Origin: Aquificaceae bacterium
Lineage (GTDB): Bacteria > Aquificota > Aquificia > Aquificales > Aquificaceae
Assembly: GCA_025057455.1 (NCBI GenBank)
Contig: JANWWY010000007.1
Location: 1 to 51,394 of the forward strand
Direction: 5' to 3'
DNA: 51,394 nucleotides
In this document: positions 24,374-50,774 of the stretch, piece after piece
How the letters are laid out: every line of letters begins with the position of its first letter
Numbering within the stretch: the first letter of the stretch is position 1
Program-made: the position numbers and the translations under genes
The notes under the pieces: model-generated
Databases searched by the model: none
What the model was told of the DNA's origin: nothing
The model's input: the letters and a program-made list of their open reading frames with translations, nothing else

Positions 24374-25561
24374 ATGAGGATACTATTGTTTTCTGGAAAG
24401 GGTGGAGTTGGTAAGACTACTGTATCGGCCGCCACCGCTTATAGACTTGCAAGTCTTGGATACAAAACCATAGTGGTTTCCTTAGATCCGGCTCATAGCC
24501 TTGGGGATGCCTTTGATATTCCTGAGGAAGAAAAAACGAGAGCCAGAGGACTGCCCATAAGGATATCCGAGAACCTCTACCTTCAGGAAATAGACATTCA
24601 AGAAGAAGTGGATAGATATTGGGGAGATGTCTACAGATTTCTTGAGCTTTTGTTTAATACCACTGGTTTAGACCAGGTGGTTTCCGAGGAGCTTGCCATA
24701 CTCCCTGGCATGGAAGAGGTCACAAGCCTTCTGTACGTAAACAAGTACTACAAGGAAGGCGAGTTTGATGCACTGGTGTTGGACCTGCCCCCTACTGGGG
24801 AGTCTCTTAGATTTGTTTCCATGCCCACAGTGCTAAAGTGGTACATGAGAAAGATATTCAATGTGGAGAGGACCATACTAAAGGTGGCAAGACCCGTGGC
24901 TCGTAGGCTTACCGATGTGCCACTGCCCGATGATGAGTACTTTAGAGCCCTTGAAAACTTTTACGAAAAGTTGAAAGGTGTAGACGAAATTTTAATAGAC
25001 CCAGAAAAAACCTCCGTAAGGCTGGTGGCAAACCCAGAAAAGATGGTGCTAAAGGAAAGTCAGAGGGCGTTCATGTACTTTAGCCTCTTTGGTGTGAATG
25101 TAGACGCAGTCATAGTAAACAAGGTACTGCCACCAACCGTAGAAAGTTGTGAACACTTTTCTAAATGGGTCCTGACTCAGAAAAAACACCTTGAAGATAT
25201 GCATGCCCTCTTTTATCCCGTCCCAGTTTTTACAGTTCCCCTGATGGAAGATGAGGTGGTAGGGGAAGAGAGGCTCAAAATCCTTTCTAACCTAATATAC
25301 GGTGATACAGACCCTATAACAGTTCTTCACAGGGAAAAGCCCTACGAGTTTGTGGAGCAGGATGGAGATTATATTGTAAAGCTAAAGGCTCCTTTTCTGA
25401 CAAAGGAAGGGCTATCCGTGCTAAAAAGTGATGGTGAAATAGTCATAAGGTGGAAAAACTTCAAAAGTCATGTGCTCTTACCGAGAAAGTTGAAGGATTA
25501 CGAGCCAAGGGGAGCAAAAATTGAGGATGGATATCTGAAAATATTTTTACTAAGAAGTTGA
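24374..25561 (+). CDS. ArsA/Get3-family ATPase
   Basis: 395 residues with the deviant Walker A GKGGVGKTT (8-16), the switch I block DPAHSLGDAF and the switch II region VLDLPPTGESLRF. A single ATPase unit is followed by a C-terminal segment (about 305-395) that resembles the HSP20-like domain of bacterial ArsA homologues. No other ars genes are near, so arsenite pumping is not supported; a role in chaperoning membrane proteins or in another client system is possible. Probably leaderless. Convergent with the UDG gene (12-base overlap). Confidence 0.88.
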   Translation: MRILLFSGKGGVGKTTVSAATAYRLASLGYKTIVVSLDPAHSLGDAFDIPEEEKTRARGLPIRISENLYLQEIDIQEEVDRYWGDVYRFLELLFNTTGLDQVVSEELAILPGMEEVTSLLYVNKYYKEGEFDALVLDLPPTGESLRFVSMPTVLKWYMRKIFNVERTILKVARPVARRLTDVPLPDDEYFRALENFYEKLKGVDEILIDPEKTSVRLVANPEKMVLKESQRAFMYFSLFGVNVDAVIVNKVLPPTVESCEHFSKWVLTQKKHLEDMHALFYPVPVFTVPLMEDEVVGEERLKILSNLIYGDTDPITVLHREKPYEFVEQDGDYIVKLKAPFLTKEGLSVLKSDGEIVIRWKNFKSHVLLPRKLKDYEPRGAKIEDGYLKIFLLRS

Positions 25562-26227
25562 TAGGAGCTGTTTTGCCCTCTTTAGGTCTTCCACAAATTC
25601 CCTCTCTGCGTTTGGATTTCTTAGTATGTAGGCGGGGTGGTAGGTAAGCAGGACCTTTATGTTTCTGTTGTAGGGGTAATCAAAAAGCTGACCCCTGTGC
25701 TTTGTGACCTGTAAGTTCTTGCCCAGTATGCCCTCTAAGGCTGTGGAGCCAAGACACACAATAAGTCTTGGTTTTATTATCTCTACCTCTTTCTTTAGGT
25801 AGGGTAAACAGCTCTGCATTTCCTTTGGCGTGGGTTTTCTGTTGCCGGGCGGTCTTGATTTGACCACATTGGTTATGTAAACCTCCTCCCTTTTGAGACC
25901 TACCTCTTCCAGCTTCTGGTTTAGGTATCTGCCCGCCCTTCCCACAAAGGGCCTTTTTTGCTGGTCTTCTTCTTCACCTGGTGCTTCTCCTACGAACAAC
26001 ACTAAGGAATAAGGATTCCCCTCACCGAAAACATAACCGCTGGCACCTTCATAGAGTATGCATTTCCTTTCCCTTTCAACAGTCTCATATAGCTCCTTTA
26101 GCCTTTTCTCTTTATCTTCTTCCTCTTCTACACTGGTTTTTGCATGCTGGATTCCCTGCGCATCAAGGTAAAGACTATCAAAGCCTATCTCCGATAGGGC
26201 TAATAGGGTAGCGTAAATCCCTCTCAC
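25550..26227 (-). CDS. Family-4-type uracil-DNA glycosylase with incomplete Fe-S cysteines
   Basis: 225 residues with the family-4 motif GEAPGEEED, the block RPFVGRAGRYLN and C-terminal YHPAYILRN. Enzymes of this family remove uracil from DNA and normally bind a 4Fe-4S cluster through C-x2-C, V-K-C-R-P-P and one later Cys. Here the first Cys of the pair is Glu (ERKC) and VKC is Ser (VKSRPP), leaving two of four ligands. The extended N-terminus (about 45 residues) matches some longer family members. It starts at GTG 26227, eight bases after TATAAT (26241-26236), probably leaderless. Confidence 0.88.
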   Translation of the reverse strand: MRGIYATLLALSEIGFDSLYLDAQGIQHAKTSVEEEEDKEKRLKELYETVERERKCILYEGASGYVFGEGNPYSLVLFVGEAPGEEEDQQKRPFVGRAGRYLNQKLEEVGLKREEVYITNVVKSRPPGNRKPTPKEMQSCLPYLKKEVEIIKPRLIVCLGSTALEGILGKNLQVTKHRGQLFDYPYNRNIKVLLTYHPAYILRNPNAEREFVEDLKRAKQLLSTS

Positions 26228-33404: not shown

Positions 33405-34001
33405 TTAGCTTCTCTTCTCTATTACCTTATCAACAATACCGTATTCCATGGCCTCCTGAGCAGACATAAAATAATCTCTTTCCACGTCTCTTTCAATTTT
33501 TTCAAGGGGCTGTCCTGTGTGCTTTGCTAATATCTGGTTGAGTATGTTCTTTATCCTCTTTATCTCCTCTGCGTGTATGATTATGTCCGTAGCCTGTCCA
33601 GATATACCACCTAAGGGCTGGTGTATCATTACCCTGGCATGGGGCAGAGCGTATCTTTTCCCCTTTGCACCCGCCGCAAGAAGCACTGCACCCATAGAGG
33701 CGGCCTGTCCCATGCATATGGTAACCACATCGGGTTTTATGTATTGCATGGTGTCGTAGATAGCCATGCCAGCAGTTACAGAACCACCGGGGGAGTTTAT
33801 GTACATGTATATATCCTTTTCTGGGTCTTGTGCCTCCAAAAATAGAAGCTGTGCCACTATAAGGTTTGATACGTGGTCATCTATGGGAAAGCCAAGGAGC
33901 ACAATTCTATCTTGCAGAAGCCTTGAGTATATGTCGTAAGCCCTTTCACCCCTGGGTGTTTGCTCTATAACTATGGGAACAAGCTGGTCAAGTATTTTCA
34001 T
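33405..34001 (-). CDS. clpP: ClpP protease subunit
   Basis: 198 residues from ATG 34001, with AAGGAGG 6 bases upstream inside the tig 3' end (14-base overlap); an ATG eight codons earlier is less well spaced. The Ser-His-Asp triad is S102 (GQAASMGA), H127 (MIHQPLGG) and D176. The propeptide is very short. It forms the tetradecameric protease chamber. Confidence 0.97.
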
Positions 34002-35283
34002 TTTGTTCCTCCTTTTTCTCCTCAATCTCTTTAACTGACACTCTGGAAATTATATCTTCTAAGGCTTTTTCTCTCCTTAGGTCTTCTTGGAGAACGGGTA
34101 TCAGGTTTTCCCCTTGCAAGTATTCTCTCATATCCTCTGTGGATTTGCCGTAAGCCTTTGCAAGCTCTTCTATTTTCCTACTGATTTCTTCTTCGCCTAC
34201 CTGAATGCCCTTTTGACTTGCATACTTATCAAGGATAAACCTGAGCTTTATGTTTAAAACCGCTTGAGGAAGTAGTTCTTGAGCCATGGACTTGTAGTCT
34301 AAATACTTTGGGTCTATTCCCCACGCTGAAAGCTCTCGTGCCCTTATCTGCACAAGGTGAGAAAGCTCTCTTTGTAGTAGGGTCTTGGGGACATCAAACT
34401 GGTGCATCTGAACCAGCTTTAGGGCCACTGCATCCATAATCATACCACGCCTTATGTTTTCCAGATTAGCCTTTATCTCTTCCCTAATCCTTTCTTCCGC
34501 TTCATTCCAGGTCTCACCTAGTCCAAGCTCCTTTGCAAACTCATCGTTTACTTCTGGAAGTATCTTTTCCTTTACACTCTTTACCCTTATCTCCACCCTT
34601 GCCTTTCCTGCGGGTCTACCTTCCGTGTCATAGAGGGTAAGCTCTTCCAAAACAAAGCTATCACCTTCCTTCTTACCGAGGAGAGCCTTTTCTATTTCTT
34701 CCCTAAAGGTTTTTGAACCGATAATGCCTGAAGTCTCTCCGTCCGTAGTTTCCCCACTTTCCATATCTTCTACCCTGTAGTCCACAACCACAAGGTCACC
34801 TTCCCTTACCTCTCTATCCACCGGCTCCCATATAGCATGTTCTTCCCTGAGCTCTTCAATCCTCTCCTTCACCATATCTTCGCTAAACTCTACTTTCTTT
34901 ATTTCCACTTCCAGGCTATCAAGGTTTTGGAGTTCAAACTCTGGGGGAACCTCAAAGGAGATGGTATAGTTTAACCTTTGAGAAAGTTCTTCCAACTGGA
35001 CCTTTTCCAGATATATGTCCGCAACTGGCTTTAAACCGCTCTCTTGAATGGCACTTGCCAATGTAACATTTGCCACCCTCTTGCCCACTTCCTCCTGTAT
35101 GTAATCCTTAAACTTTGCCCTTATTATCCATAGGGGTGCCTTACCCTTTCTGAAGCCCTCCACTTCCGCATGCTCTTTCAAATAGTTATAAACTTCGTCA
35201 AGAGCGGACTTTACTATGTCGCCCTCTATTTGCACATTAAGAGCTCTAAAAAGCCCTTCTCTGCTTTCTACGCTTACCTTCAT
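33988..35283 (-). CDS. tig: Trigger factor
   Basis: 431 residues from ATG 35283, 5 bases after AAGGAGG; an in-frame start at 35328 would translate through the tRNA-Leu gene and is rejected. Domain order: ribosome-binding domain with a degenerate signature ([12 protein letters not shown]), a PPIase-like domain ([13 protein letters not shown] ...) and a helical C-terminal chaperone domain. Nascent-chain chaperone at the exit tunnel. The SD begins only a few bases after the tRNA 3' end. Confidence 0.95.
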
Positions 35284-35301
35284 GTAAACCTCCTTCTGTA
35301 A

Positions 35302-35384
35302 TGCGGGTGGAGGGAGTCGAACCCTCACGGGCTAAGCCCACAGGATCCTAAGTCCTGCGCGTCTGCCAGTTCCGCCACACCCGC
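35302..35384 (-). tRNA. tRNA-Leu (anticodon UAG)
   Basis: Acceptor stem GCGGGTG/CACCCGC with discriminator A. The anticodon stem CAGGA/TCCTG encloses the loop CTTAGGA, giving UAG. The long variable arm TGGGCTTAGCCCG and T arm GAGGGTTCGACTCCC are as expected for class II leucine tRNA. No CCA is encoded. It lies 18 bases upstream of tig on the same strand. Confidence 0.95.
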
Positions 35385-35397
35385 TCAGGAATAAAAA

Positions 35398-35403
35398 ATT
35401 ATA
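35398..35403 (-). promoter_or_regulatory. -10 element for the tRNA-Leu/tig transcript
   Basis: Minus-strand TATAAT followed by TTTTTTATTCCTGA ends 13 bases before the tRNA 5' end. It would give one transcript carrying tRNA-Leu, tig and possibly clpP-clpX and further genes. The -35 is not obvious. Confidence 0.55.
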
Positions 35404-36662: not shown

Positions 36663-37640
36663 ATGCGAATATTAGTGACGGGGGGAGCTGGATACATAGG
36701 GTCTCACATGGTAAAGCTTTTGGGAGAGGGAGGATACGATGTTCTTACAGTGGATAATCTGTCAGAGGGAAGTCCTCAGTTTGTCCTATATGGTGCTCTC
36801 AGAGTGGTGGACCTTCTCAACTTTAAGGCTTTGGAGGAAGTCCTTTTGGAGTTTAAACCTCATGCGGTTATACACTTTGCCGCAAAGGTAAAGGTGCCAG
36901 AAAGCGTAAAAAAACCGCTTTTGTATTATGAGAACAACCTAATGGGAACTGTAAACCTACTGCAGGCAATGGAGAGAGCTGGGGTAAAGTATCTTATCTT
37001 CTCTTCTACTGCGGCGGTCTATGGAATACCTCAGAGGATGCCCGTGAAGGAGGAAGACCCTACAAATCCCATAAATCCCTACGGATGGAGTAAGCTCTTT
37101 GCGGAAAGAGCTATAAGAGATTACTCTTACAGCACTGGTATAAAGTACGCAATTCTACGATACTTTAACGTAGCTGGAGCAGACCCAGAGGGAAGGATAG
37201 GGCAGGTTAGCAAAGAACCCACACACCTTATCCTAAGGGCGGTAAAGGTAGCCACAGGTCAGATACCATACATAGAGGTCTTCGGCGCAGACTACAACAC
37301 CTCCGACGGCACATGCATAAGGGATTATGTGCACGTTATGGACCTCTGCGAGGCACACTTAAGGGCTTTAGAGCATCTGATTGCTGGTGGTGAAAGTGAC
37401 GTTTTTAACATAGGCTACGGCAGAGGTTATACAGTCTTGGAAGTTATCAACAAGGTAAAGGAAGTTTCCAAGGTTGATTTTGAGGTGCGTTATGCATCCA
37501 GGCGTGAAGGAGACCCTCCAGCTCTTGTGGCAGACAGCACAAAAGCCAAAGAAATCCTTCAGTGGAAACCTAAGTATGACGACCTTGAATTTATAATAAA
37601 GACCGCACTCAACTGGGAAAGGAAATATATTAATAGATAA
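36663..37640 (+). CDS. galE: UDP-glucose 4-epimerase
   Basis: 325 residues, short-chain dehydrogenase fold: NAD motif GGAGYIGS (7-14), catalytic Ser/Thr region FSSTAAVYG and Y-x-x-x-K in NPYGWSKLFAE. The C-terminal substrate-binding part (FNVAGADPEGRIGQ, RREGDPPALVAD) matches GalE. It interconverts UDP-glucose and UDP-galactose for envelope sugars. The stop shares one base with the next start (TAATG). Confidence 0.93.
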   Translation: MRILVTGGAGYIGSHMVKLLGEGGYDVLTVDNLSEGSPQFVLYGALRVVDLLNFKALEEVLLEFKPHAVIHFAAKVKVPESVKKPLLYYENNLMGTVNLLQAMERAGVKYLIFSSTAAVYGIPQRMPVKEEDPTNPINPYGWSKLFAERAIRDYSYSTGIKYAILRYFNVAGADPEGRIGQVSKEPTHLILRAVKVATGQIPYIEVFGADYNTSDGTCIRDYVHVMDLCEAHLRALEHLIAGGESDVFNIGYGRGYTVLEVINKVKEVSKVDFEVRYASRREGDPPALVADSTKAKEILQWKPKYDDLEFIIKTALNWERKYINR

Positions 37641-47295: not shown

Positions 47296-48144
47296 ATGCT
47301 TAGCATGACTGGCTTTGGGTCCGGAGTTTGCGAAAACGAAAAGTGGACCGTGAACGTGTTCGCAAAAAGCCTAAACGGTAAAACTCTTGAAGTTTTCATA
47401 AAGTCCAACTACAACCTCATGTCCTTAGAGTTTTCCATAAGAAAAATGGTAAGGGAGTTTGTTAGGCGTGGAAGCGTTAGCCTGCACATAGATGTGAGAA
47501 AAAAGGGCATTTCAGAGCCGGTAAACCTTGAAAACCTGCTCACCAACATAAACTTTTTCAAGATAGTTAGGGAAAAAGTTGGGCTTGATGTAAGTGACGA
47601 TGTGATTTTACAGCTCTCAGCCAGATACTCAGAGGCACCAAGGGAAGAAATAGACCCCCTTTTGGAAGAGGCTACATCCTGTGCTCTTATCCAAGCACTG
47701 AAGGAGCTTGTGAGCAGAAAAGCTGAGGAAGGTCAGCATATGAGAAAGGATATGGAAGAAAGGCTAAAGACTATAGAAAGCCTTCTTCAAGAGCTTTTAA
47801 GAAGCAAAGAGCAGGTCTACGAGAGGGTAAAGAGGAGGGTCCTTGAAAAGGCTGAAGAGCTTGGTCTTTCTGAAAACAGGTCTCTCGTGCTTAACGAAAT
47901 ATCCTTGATACTTTCTAAAATGGATGTGGAAGAGGAAATAACAAGGCTAAGAGTTCACCTAGAAAGGTGCAGGGAGATTATGGGTTTGGATGAGGATGTG
48001 GGCAGGAAGTTGGAGTTTTTGTTTCAGGAGATGCATAGGGAAATAACAACCCTTTCCAACAAACTGCCGGAGCTTTCTCACATTGCTGTGGAAATAAAGA
48101 CGGAGATAGACAGGCTAAAACAACAGGTGGCAAATGTGGAATAG
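47296..48144 (+). CDS. yicC: YicC family endoribonuclease-like protein
   Basis: 282 residues: N-terminal MLSMTGFGSG signature, middle VRRGSVSLHIDV and the C-terminal DUF1732 block (EMHREITTLSNKL ... HIAVEIKTEIDRLKQQVANVE) typical of YicC. E. coli YicC is reported to be an endoribonuclease involved in sRNA turnover. It may be leaderless. A tRNA transcript follows. Confidence 0.94.
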   Translation: MLSMTGFGSGVCENEKWTVNVFAKSLNGKTLEVFIKSNYNLMSLEFSIRKMVREFVRRGSVSLHIDVRKKGISEPVNLENLLTNINFFKIVREKVGLDVSDDVILQLSARYSEAPREEIDPLLEEATSCALIQALKELVSRKAEEGQHMRKDMEERLKTIESLLQELLRSKEQVYERVKRRVLEKAEELGLSENRSLVLNEISLILSKMDVEEEITRLRVHLERCREIMGLDEDVGRKLEFLFQEMHREITTLSNKLPELSHIAVEIKTEIDRLKQQVANVE

Positions 48145-48149
48145 TGTAG

Positions 48150-48155
48150 TATAAT
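48150..48155 (+). promoter_or_regulatory. -10 of the tRNA-Gly/tRNA-Cys/rpsT transcript
   Basis: TATAAT 13 bases before tRNA-Gly, preceded by TGTAG, with A+T-rich sequence after it. It would give an RNA carrying both tRNAs and rpsT. No good -35 is visible within the yicC end. Confidence 0.55.
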
Positions 48156-48168
48156 ATATAGATGCACA

Positions 48169-48240
48169 GCGGGCGTAGCTCAGTGGTGGAGCGGCTGCTT
48201 GCCATGCAGCAGGTCGCGGGTTCGAGTCCCGTCGCCCGCT
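48169..48240 (+). tRNA. tRNA-Gly (anticodon GCC)
   Basis: Acceptor GCGGGCG/CGCCCGC, D arm GCTCAGTGGTGGAGC, anticodon stem CTGCT/GGCAG-type enclosing TTGCCAT, T arm GCGGGTTCGAGTCCCGT. CCA is not encoded; TTTT follows and the next tRNA starts 5 bases later. Confidence 0.96.
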
Positions 48241-48244
48241 TTTT

Positions 48245-48316
48245 GGCAACGTGGCCGAGCGGCTAGGCGAGGGACTGCAAATCCCTTTTACGGCGGTTCG
48301 AATCCGCCCGTTGCCT
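48245..48316 (+). tRNA. tRNA-Cys (anticodon GCA)
   Basis: Acceptor GGCAACG/CGTTGCC with discriminator T. The anticodon loop CTGCAAA lies between GGGA/TCCC, and the T arm is GGCGGTTCGAATCCGCC. No CCA encoded. rpsT begins 30 bases downstream with its SD in between. Confidence 0.96.
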
Positions 48317-48345
48317 TGTGAAGAAGGTATTTAAGGAGGTACATA

Positions 48346-48624
48346 ATGCCTAACACTAAGCAGGCTGAAAAGCGTGTAAGAAGAGATGCAAAGAGGAGGC
48401 TGCGTAACAGGTATCATCTATCAAGGATGAGGACTTACATAAAGAAGTTTAGGAAAATGGTAGAAAGTGGTCAGCTTGAAGAGGCAAAGCAGTTTTTACC
48501 AGAGGTTATAAGCATTGTATATCATACCGCTTCAAAAGGTGTAATACACAAAAACGAGGCAGCGAGAAGGGCTTCAAGGATTACCCAGCTTCTTAATAAA
48601 GCCCTTAAAAAGGTTCAAGGGTAG
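48346..48624 (+). CDS. rpsT: Ribosomal protein S20
   Basis: 92 residues starting MPNTKQAEKRVRRDAKRR, a helical basic protein with the family end HKNEAARRASRITQLLNKAL. SD AAGGAGG precedes ATG. It is likely released from a tRNA-containing transcript by tRNA processing. Its 3' end overlaps convergent murJ by 51 bases, an unusually long overlap. Confidence 0.96.
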   Translation: MPNTKQAEKRVRRDAKRRLRNRYHLSRMRTYIKKFRKMVESGQLEEAKQFLPEVISIVYHTASKGVIHKNEAARRASRITQLLNKALKKVQG

Positions 48625-50064
48625 ATAAGCTAAAGGCTCCTTTAAAAGAAGGAGCAGAAGCCAGTAGAGCATCCCGGCGGTTGGTATAGCATACAAAATA
48701 TCAATATGGTTGGGCTTTATAAGTAAAAGGTATAAGCACATAACAAAAGTGGCCACCAGTCCCCTGAGAGCGGATGCCCAATAAGCTTTGCCGTCTATGT
48801 GCCTCTCTTTCCAAAAGTAAAGAAGAAAGAGAAAGCCGGCAAGGGAAGAGCTTGCAGTTCCAAGGGCAAGCCCTACAACCCCTAATTTTAATACAAAGGC
48901 AAAAACAAAAGCTAAAAGCCCTTCAGAAATAACAGAAAAAAGAGAGGAAAAAACAGGCGTTTTTGTATTACCTTTTGCAAAATACACGCTTGCCAAAACC
49001 TTTTGAAGAGAAAAAAATGTCAAACCCAGAGAATAAACAGCCAAGACCTTGCCAGCTATGAGAATATCCTCTTGAGAAAACCTGCCTCTGCCGTAAAGAA
49101 GGGCTATTATCTGCTCTGATAGAACTACAAGCCCACCGCTGGCGGGAAGTGCCAGAAGTGTTACAAACCTGAAGGCAAGGGTGGTATTGCTCCTTGGGTC
49201 ACTACCAACGGACAATGCGGAAAGTAGAGAGTTTGCCATACCAACCGAAAGGGCACCCAAAGGGAGCTGAAAAATCCTGTTGGCATAGTAAAGGTAAGAT
49301 ATGGCACCAAGAGCCAAAAAGGATGCCATAAAGGTATCTATGAAAAAGGAAAGCTGAGCCACACCAAAGCCCATAAGCGCAGGCATAAGCCTCTTTAGAA
49401 GGAGGTTTAGGTCTTTGTCCCTTTCAAGAGTAAGCCTTGGTATAAGACCGTGGGAATAAGCGGAGGGAATGTGAAAGAGAAGCTGTGCAAGACCGCCCAG
49501 CACTACACCGGTCACAAGGGCTATGTAGCCAAACTTTTCAGCTCCTATTGCGACGCAGAGAGCCATAACGAGGTTAAAAACAGCCTGAGCAAAAGCAGGA
49601 ACAAAGAAAACACCTCTTGTGTTTAGCACAGCCATAAAAAAGGCACTAAGACCCACGAAAAAAAGGTAGCTAAACAAAAACTTAGCCATAAACACAGCCA
49701 GCTCAAAATAGTCCTTGTTTGCTATGCCCGGTGCTATAAGCCTTATTATCCACTCTGTAAAGACTATACCCAAAAGGGTAACGAGGAGGTTAAAGAGAGT
49801 ATAGTAGGTAAACACAGAACTCAAGAAGGCTCTTTCTGTGCTTTCCCTATATCGCTTGGCAAAAATGGGAATGAAGGCGGCGTTGAAACCACCCTCACCA
49901 AACAACCTTCGGAGCGTATTGGGAAGTCTGAAGGCTATAAAAAAGGCATCTGTTATATGAGAAACACCAAAATGGTAGGCTATAAGGGCATCCCTTACAT
50001 AGCCGAGGACCCTGCTAAGAAGGGTGGCAATTGAAAAGGATATAGAATGCTTTATTAAACCCAT
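48574..50064 (-). CDS. murJ: Lipid II flippase MurJ
   Basis: 496 residues with about 14 membrane helices. The N-terminus (SFSIATLLSRVLGYVRDALIAYHFG) and RLPNTLRRLFGEGGFNAAFIPIF are MurJ signatures, including conserved Arg residues of the cavity. It moves lipid II across the inner membrane. Its ATG lies 8 bases after the encoded CCA of tRNA-Leu(GAG) with no SD (AAAAGCCA), so processing of the tRNA would leave an almost leaderless mRNA. Confidence 0.95.
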   Translation of the reverse strand: MGLIKHSISFSIATLLSRVLGYVRDALIAYHFGVSHITDAFFIAFRLPNTLRRLFGEGGFNAAFIPIFAKRYRESTERAFLSSVFTYYTLFNLLVTLLGIVFTEWIIRLIAPGIANKDYFELAVFMAKFLFSYLFFVGLSAFFMAVLNTRGVFFVPAFAQAVFNLVMALCVAIGAEKFGYIALVTGVVLGGLAQLLFHIPSAYSHGLIPRLTLERDKDLNLLLKRLMPALMGFGVAQLSFFIDTFMASFLALGAISYLYYANRIFQLPLGALSVGMANSLLSALSVGSDPRSNTTLAFRFVTLLALPASGGLVVLSEQIIALLYGRGRFSQEDILIAGKVLAVYSLGLTFFSLQKVLASVYFAKGNTKTPVFSSLFSVISEGLLAFVFAFVLKLGVVGLALGTASSSLAGFLFLLYFWKERHIDGKAYWASALRGLVATFVMCLYLLLIKPNHIDILYAIPTAGMLYWLLLLLLKEPLAYLPLNLFKGFIKKLGNP

Positions 50065-50072
50065 TGGCTTTT

Positions 50073-50159
50073 TGGTGCCGGAGGCGGGAGTCGAACCCGC
50101 ACGCCCTCACGGGCACTGCCCCCTCAAGACAGCGCGTCTGCCAGTTCCGCCACTCCGGC
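50073..50159 (-). tRNA. tRNA-Leu (anticodon GAG), CCA encoded
   Basis: Acceptor GCCGGAG/CTCCGGC, discriminator A and an encoded CCA (50075-50073). The anticodon stem CTGTC/GGCAG encloses TTGAGGG, giving GAG. The variable arm is long (TGCCCGTGAGGGCG) and the T arm is GCGGGTTCGACTCCCGC. It sits directly upstream of murJ. Confidence 0.95.
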
Positions 50160-50180
50160 TTAGGTATATTATTATACACC
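50160..50180. promoter_or_regulatory. Overlapping divergent promoters of thiE and tRNA-Leu/murJ
   Basis: A 21-base gap. On the minus strand TATAAT (50176-50171) serves the tRNA. On the plus strand TATATT (50165-50170) or TATTAT (50167-50172) serves thiE, ending 8-10 bases before ATG. The stretch 50163-50180 is a near-palindrome (GGTATATTATTATACACC), so the two -10s share bases. Confidence 0.5.
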
Positions 50181-50774
50181 ATGGATTTGACACTGCCAAG
50201 ACTTTACGCCATCACAGATAGAAAAAGATACCCCGATTGGTTAGAAAGGTTGGAAAAACTTCTAAAGAAGGGCATAAGAATGGTTCAGCTCAGAGAAAAA
50301 GAAATCTCAGGTGCGGAATACTACAGGCTTGCCCTACAAGTTAGAGAACTAACAGGAGCGTACAATGCGCTACTTTTTATAAACGACCGATTAGACATAG
50401 CGATGGCGGTGGGAGCGGATGGCGTCCACTTGCCAGACAGTAGCTTACCTCCTAAGGTGGTAAAGGATATAAACCCTAAGATTTTGGTAGGCTATTCCGC
50501 TCACAGTATTGATAAGGCTCTTTGGGCACAGAGCCAAGGCGCAGACTTTGTGACTCTGAGCCCCATCTTCAAAACCCAATCCCATCCAGAAGTTGAGCCT
50601 ATAGGTTTGCAAAAACTAAAAGAAGCATCTGAAAAGCTTTCCATTCCAGTGTATGCCCTAGGTGGTATAACGTGGGAAAAAATAAGGCTTTGCTACAAAA
50701 ACGGAGCCTACGGTGTGGCGGGCATAGGCATGTTTTTTGACCATGTTGATAGTGATTGGGGGTCCAACGGGTAG
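50181..50774 (+). CDS. thiE: Thiamine phosphate synthase
   Basis: 197 residues from ATG 50181; in-frame upstream starts would read through the antisense of tRNA-Leu and are rejected. TIM-barrel blocks: RLYAITDRKRYPDW, MVQLREKEISGAEYY, LFINDRLDIAMAVGADGVHLPDSSL, SAHSIDKALWAQSQGADFVTLSPIF and YALGGITWEKI. It couples the pyrimidine and thiazole phosphates. It overlaps miaA by 32 bases. Confidence 0.93.
   Translation: MDLTLPRLYAITDRKRYPDWLERLEKLLKKGIRMVQLREKEISGAEYYRLALQVRELTGAYNALLFINDRLDIAMAVGADGVHLPDSSLPPKVVKDINPKILVGYSAHSIDKALWAQSQGADFVTLSPIFKTQSHPEVEPIGLQKLKEASEKLSIPVYALGGITWEKIRLCYKNGAYGVAGIGMFFDHVDSDWGSNG

Follow-up and report, generated by a model that had tools for sequence, protein, structure and literature searches.

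The window, a stretch of 51,394 nucleotides, is contig 64 of the genome of a heat-loving Aquificaceae bacterium (G000; 1.42 Mb, 66 contigs, 99.7% complete). ARAGORN located four tRNA genes in it, which stand in three units with the protein genes tig, rpsT and murJ:

35398..35403, minus strand: -10 box TATAAT of the tRNA-Leu(UAG)/tig unit, 13 nt before the tRNA (sequence)
35302..35384, minus strand: tRNA-Leu(UAG), CCA not encoded (ARAGORN, Rfam)
35284..35301, minus strand: tRNA-Leu(UAG)-tig spacer of 18 nt with Shine-Dalgarno AGGAGG (sequence)
33988..35283, minus strand: tig (trigger factor), ATG at 35283 (Pfam Trigger_N and Trigger_C)
48127..48155, plus strand: promoter-like GTGGCA-17-TATAAT of the tRNA-Gly/tRNA-Cys/rpsT unit (sequence motif)
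48168..48241, plus strand: tRNA-Gly(GCC), CCA not encoded (ARAGORN, Rfam)
48245..48316, plus strand: tRNA-Cys(GCA), CCA not encoded (ARAGORN, Rfam)
48317..48345, plus strand: tRNA-Cys-rpsT spacer of 29 nt with Shine-Dalgarno AGGAGG (sequence)
48346..48624, plus strand: rpsT (ribosomal protein S20), ATG at 48346 (Pfam Ribosomal_S20p)
50171..50199, minus strand: promoter-like TTGGCA-17-TATAAT of the tRNA-Leu(GAG)/murJ unit (sequence motif)
50073..50159, minus strand: tRNA-Leu(GAG) including the encoded CCA (ARAGORN; genome search 46.8 bits)
50065..50072, minus strand: tRNA-Leu(GAG)-murJ spacer of 8 nt, without Shine-Dalgarno or -10 box (sequence)
48574..50064, minus strand: murJ (lipid II flippase), ATG at 50064 (Pfam MurJ, NCBIfam TIGR01695)

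The tRNA-gene distances given by the first-pass annotation (18 nt for tig, 29 nt for rpsT and 8 nt for murJ) were borne out by ARAGORN and the sequence. For tig, whose case it had given as 35283-35384, the -10 box that it had placed upstream of tRNA-Leu(UAG) and the Shine-Dalgarno in the spacer were also seen in the sequence. Leu(GAG) is the sole CCA-encoding tRNA among the four, so that its discriminator base lies 11 nt from the murJ ATG. It was missed by cmscan at Rfam gathering thresholds, which reported the other three, despite scoring above the cut-off in the genome search; beyond the tRNAs, the Rfam scan of the window yielded nothing. When folded at 37 °C, the murJ leader formed no cloverleaf and was no more stable than shuffled sequences (z -0.82).

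A TATAAT box precedes tRNA-Leu(UAG), tRNA-Gly and tRNA-Leu(GAG). The latter two also have a -35-like hexamer at 17 nt, which in the case of tRNA-Gly falls within the 3' end of the preceding ORF; none was found ahead of tRNA-Leu(UAG). No terminator-like site was detected between tRNA and gene in the window. ORFs recognised as clpP and clpX from their translations (not by family search) follow tig on the same strand.

Two arrangements at the edges of these units are noted here. The rpsT (plus) and murJ (minus) genes overlap tail to tail at 48574-48624, so that two tRNA-led units run into each other. In 17 of the 21 genomes of this family that were compared, the two genes share 18-45 bp, leaving the stop codons aside. 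The gap between tRNA-Leu(GAG) and the ATG of an opposite-strand thiE-like gene (named from its translation only) is just 21 bp, at 50160-50181. The divergent -10 boxes of the two overlap, and the thiE-like mRNA is probably leaderless.

Conservation and promoter placement of the tRNA-led units

We searched 41 genomes, that is, G000 and 40 relatives: 25 from its own family (f1), which we took as Aquificaceae, and seven and nine from the sister families f2 and f3. The genes tig, rpsT and murJ were each present in 39 of the 41, and up to 30 loci per gene were compared. A tRNA-Leu lay directly upstream of tig in 20 of 21 f1 loci (exception G019), with the anticodon UAG in 19 and CAG in G014; no tRNA preceded tig in the seven f2 and two f3 loci. 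The rpsT gene was tRNA-led in 15 of 23 f1 loci and not in the remaining eight f1 or in seven f2 loci. Gly-Cys was the leader in all 12 loci compared from the window's own genus, and other leaders were Cys alone (G019), His (G016) and a four-tRNA cluster (G014). For murJ, a tRNA-Leu led the gene in 10 of 21 f1 loci (GAG in eight, CAA in two), 11 had no tRNA, and none of nine f3 loci had one.

A Shine-Dalgarno was kept in all 35 tRNA-led tig and rpsT loci; the tRNA-tig spacer of G016 is 22 nt long. The tRNA-led murJ loci differ in this respect: nine of ten have no Shine-Dalgarno of at least 4 nt (G005 has AGGA), and in all ten the discriminator stands 8-12 nt before the start codon.

In 44 of 45 units (tig 20/20, rpsT 15/15, murJ 9/10), an exact TATAAT was present no more than 40 nt ahead of the first tRNA, mostly 10-14 nt before it; with one mismatch allowed, it was found in all ten murJ units. 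Between the tRNA 5' end and the ATG, no exact TATAAT occurred in any of these 45 loci. Conserved internal promoters for the three genes were also sought with one mismatch and were rejected, as such a hexamer appeared in four of the 45 loci and was not shared. Among rpsT loci, 11 of 15 without a tRNA had an exact TATAAT no more than 80 nt from the start codon, in contrast to 0 of 15 that are tRNA-led (Fisher P=5×10−5). The same element was rare near tRNA-less tig (3/10) and murJ (1/11), several of which may be internal genes of operons, and it is therefore only for rpsT that the promoter-swap control is clear.

The first-pass annotation had further argued that no separate promoter fits between tRNA and gene. 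This stands for the window insofar as the tig, rpsT and murJ spacers hold no -10-like hexamer, but lack of room is unsound as a general argument, since spacers of 16-25 nt elsewhere do hold such boxes. In G000, carA, accA, rpiB and a class-II lysyl/aspartyl/asparaginyl-tRNA-synthetase-type gene have spacers of 16-24 nt with a -10-like hexamer 6-7 nt before the ATG. In the tRNA-led loci, the anatomy is conserved, the promoter element sits ahead of the tRNA and no conserved promoter lies in between. On this sequence evidence, co-transcription from the tRNA promoter appears well supported, and the view that tig, rpsT and murJ would have no promoter of their own and be led by that of the tRNA is supported.

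Spacer classes behind Aquificaceae tRNAs

We then considered all ARAGORN tRNAs in the examined stretches of four genomes, G000 and G016 (f1), G027 (f2) and G036 (f3), and scored an ATG-started ORF of at least 55 aa within 33 nt of the discriminator as a close gene. G016 is probably A. aeolicus VF5: its HARP gene (607513-608067) adjoins the aq_880 entry at 608075 (PMC4227106). A close gene was found for 18 of 41 tRNAs in G000, 15 of 41 in G016 (which has 43), five of 34 in G027 and six of 36 in G036. The proportion was higher in f1 (33/82) than in the sister families (11/70; Fisher P=0.001), and the difference held for genes within 14 nt (17/82 versus 2/70; P=0.0009), where the sister-family counts are raw ORFs taken without a homology check and G027 is covered for 34 of its 39 tRNAs. 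These results are an indication, from two genomes against two and not from a survey, that the close tRNA-gene habit is genome-wide in Aquificaceae.

Two units were added by hand (tuf, which tRNA-Thr precedes at a contig end of G000, and tig of G016), raising the counts to 19/41 and 16/41. The resulting 35 cases from both genomes, with one GTG ORF behind tRNA-Val(UAC) left out, fall into three spacer classes: short ones, longer ones with a Shine-Dalgarno and longer ones with a -10 box of their own. Short spacers (7-14 nt; 17 cases) contain a 4-nt Shine-Dalgarno in four cases and a weak -10-like hexamer in one. Among the 18 long spacers (16-33 nt), eight have a Shine-Dalgarno, including those of tig and rpsT, nine a -10-like hexamer at 6-8 nt from the ATG, and one, by the criteria used, has neither. 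When the letters of the long spacers were shuffled, such a hexamer arose in 1.35 cases on average, and nine were never reached in 5000 trials. The long spacers bearing a -10 box look as expected for leaderless mRNAs with a promoter of their own. In the window, a -10-like hexamer also lies within 16 nt of the start codon in 12 of 70 crudely called genes (examples are 25550-26227(-), 36663-37640(+) and 47296-48144(+)), which suggests that leaderless mRNAs may be frequent.

Spacer lengths were clustered, with 14 of 35 at 9-12 nt (binomial P=3×10−5 against a uniform distribution over 1-33 nt, which is a crude null; the classes had been seen before testing). An exact TATAAT lay 9-17 nt upstream of the tRNA in 13 of the 17 short-spacer units. 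All ten short-spacer genes of G000 were recognisable: queC, a macro-domain protein, dut, gyrB, dcd, a YmdB-like phosphoesterase, murJ, minC, secE and a CDP-alcohol phosphatidyltransferase-like gene. The seven of G016 matched models for a RecF/RecN/SMC N-terminal domain, a zinc-ribbon domain, the NiFe-hydrogenase small subunit, quinolinate phosphoribosyltransferase, porphobilinogen deaminase, ribose-phosphate pyrophosphokinase and Mur ligase. Most of the G000 profile matches begin in the first ten residues, which supports the assigned starts of those genes.

A published transcript bears on this class. In the dRNA-seq data of PMC4227106, Table 3 lists t06;43 (383154-383390, minus strand) under the label 'recN; tRNA'. 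Mapped on G016, this stretch begins 4 nt ahead of tRNA-Thr(CGU), runs through the tRNA and its 10-nt spacer and takes in 151 nt of recN. It agrees with co-transcription of a short-spacer unit, with the caveat that the counts are low (9/2) and that reads of separate RNAs could have been joined. No good -10 box is present at the usual place ahead of this tRNA, and no comment on tRNA-mRNA units was found in the accessible part of PMC4227106.

tRNA-processing enzymes

Genes for the protein-only RNase P, HARP, were detected in all 25 f1 genomes, and RNase P RNA was found in none of them. That Aquificaceae have HARP and no RNase P RNA was already known, as far as the accessible parts of PMC4227106 and PMC10941002 go. 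The tRNA 3' side presented a different picture, as a full-length RNase Z match was obtained in none of the 25 f1 genomes. With the NCBIfam RNase Z model, f1 gave partial matches only (the best, in G020, at 50.9 bits), and the incomplete f1 genome G011 gave no match, even partial. The same model scored 264-275 bits in all seven f2 genomes and 271-291 bits in four of nine f3 genomes. A further query, a sister-family protein of 326 aa that matches 1y44 (B. subtilis-type RNase Z) best in the PDB, revealed a second RNase Z-like protein in all nine f3 genomes.

A metallo-β-lactamase (MBL) protein of G000, L024:2049-2804(-), was considered as RNase Z and rejected, with 50 bits against a cut-off of 293 and weak PDB matches. 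In the MBL protein of G016, profile positions 1-150 and 203-302 were matched adjacently, so that about 50 positions are missing. CCA is encoded in seven of 41 tRNAs in G000 and in 32 of 41 in G016; 34 of the 41 G000 tRNAs are thus without it, yet a full-length RNase Z match was obtained only in the sister families. Given that no full-length RNase Z was matched and that few tRNAs of G000 encode CCA, f1 must form tRNA 3' ends otherwise. Candidates for 3' processing are the MBL relative of about 250 aa, RNase E/G or some other route.

Proposed formation of mRNA 5' ends and comparison with known systems

Taken together, we think it probable that one transcript from the tRNA promoter carries both tRNA and protein gene, that the tRNA is cut out and that an mRNA is thereby set free. 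Transcription would start a few nucleotides before the tRNA, and the primary transcript would consist of a short 5' leader, the tRNA or tRNAs, a short spacer and the protein gene or genes. The 5' side of the tRNA would be cut by HARP and its 3' side by a putative nuclease, and excision would release an mRNA that begins in the spacer. The leaders released for tig and rpsT would have up to 18 and 29 nt, respectively, and carry a Shine-Dalgarno; that of murJ would have at most 8 nt, carry none and be translated like a leaderless mRNA. We infer the two cuts, the nuclease on the 3' side, the precise 5' end and the mode of murJ initiation, and hold it likely that tRNA excision makes the mRNA 5' ends. 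Weighing against this model are the lack of a full-length RNase Z match in f1, a promoter-swap argument that is clear-cut for rpsT alone, and the t06;43 entry, whose counts are low (9/2) and which may join reads of separate RNAs.

Alternatively, the protein genes could be bystanders of a compact genome that use a strong tRNA promoter, and processing would then free tRNA and mRNA alike and have no regulatory meaning. We give this about an even chance. By a crude gene caller, 44 of 53 same-strand gene pairs in the window are 22 nt or less apart or overlap. Partners also vary by genus, Leu(UAA) leading dcd in G000 and nadC in G016, and Thr(CGU) leading dut and a recN-like gene, and tig and rpsT have kept a full Shine-Dalgarno. 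Mere packing accounts less well for the retention of tRNA-Leu before tig in 20 of 21 f1 loci and for the clustering of short-class spacers at 9-12 nt.

An RNase E/G-type cut inside the spacer, followed by trimming of the tRNA 3' end, could instead make the mRNA 5' end. The lack of a full-length RNase Z match in all 25 f1 genomes favours such a route, as do the Aquificae homologues of 466-470 aa listed in the accessible part of PMC3071783 and the title of a published study on A. aeolicus RNA processing by RNase E/G. A cut of this kind could, however, remove the Shine-Dalgarno, which none of the 35 tRNA-led tig and rpsT loci lacks, and we regard it as possible but somewhat doubtful. Far less probable, in our judgement, is transcription of tig, rpsT and murJ from promoters of their own within tRNA or spacer, giving leaderless or short-leader mRNAs, as is proposed for accA, rpiB and others in G000. 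Of the 18 long spacers of G000 and G016, nine do contain a -10-like hexamer at 6-8 nt from the ATG, and a high frequency of leaderless genes has been predicted for Aquificae (PMC3160421, in its accessible part), but no exact TATAAT lies between tRNA 5' end and ATG in 45 of 45 tRNA-led loci, and its one-mismatch form, in four of the 45, is not shared.

Within the model of tRNA-promoter transcription and excision, the suggestion of the first-pass annotation that gene output could track tRNA maturation is a hypothesis. A full Shine-Dalgarno behind the tRNA weakens it for tig and rpsT, and it is stronger for murJ, whose spacer is mostly without one. The footprint of the 30S subunit is normally larger than the 8-12 nt between discriminator and start codon in the murJ class. 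A folded tRNA would thus be too close for 30S binding, and it is plausible that the tRNA is removed before initiation in this class. Its removal would leave 5-9 nt ahead of the murJ start codon if CCA is encoded and 11-12 nt if it is not. Leaderless genes make up 20.7-32.4% in the two of five Aquificae genomes where they were detected, according to the accessible part of PMC3160421, and with such genes predicted to be common in Aquificae, a near-leaderless murJ mRNA could be translated.

In its strongest form, this idea holds that Aquificaceae require excision for many mRNAs, that the tRNA blocks the start codon, that the 3' enzyme is non-canonical and that gene output goes with the flux of tRNA maturation. 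Removal of a folded tRNA would make the start codon 7-14 nt behind it accessible and yield a near-leaderless mRNA. The genes concerned would be murJ, gyrB, dut, dcd, minC, queC, secE and others in G000, and the recN-like gene, hemC, nadC, prs and the Mur ligase gene in G016. We consider this form unlikely as a whole; if true, it would amount to tRNA punctuation in bacteria that by its nature also gates translation.

Should the excision model hold, tRNA processing would form many mRNA 5' ends in a bacterial family that has a protein-only RNase P and no full-length RNase Z match. The units would then allow a direct test of translation gating by removal of a 5' tRNA and provide substrates for finding the tRNA 3' enzyme. 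If co-transcription alone is true, it corrects the annotation of transcription units and 5' UTRs in Aquificaceae. No published description of this pattern was found among titles and the beginnings of abstracts, a scope outside which most subscription literature lies.

Operons of tRNA and mRNA are known from E. coli (thrU-tyrU-glyT-thrT-tufB and metY-nusA). The units described here resemble them, since same-strand tRNAs directly upstream head a protein-coding unit and, by sequence, a single promoter lies upstream of the tRNA; the tRNA-Thr before tuf in G000 is a further likeness. Unlike in E. coli, about half of the tRNAs of G000 closely precede genes, and there is a class of 7-14-nt spacers, mostly without Shine-Dalgarno. 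The units also recall mitochondrial tRNA punctuation, as described in the accessible part of PMC10941002, in that tRNA excision would make RNA ends. They differ from it by their many separate promoters, by tRNAs that stand only at the 5' side, by partly longer spacers and by the lack of a full-length RNase Z match. With the leaderless mRNAs of Aquificae (PMC3160421, accessible part), the murJ class mostly shares the lack of a Shine-Dalgarno and would share a start codon near the 5' end. The spacer class with -10 boxes fits that type, whereas the murJ-class 5' end would come from processing and not from a transcription start. While tRNA-mRNA operons as such are already known, their scale in Aquificaceae and the short-spacer class may be new.
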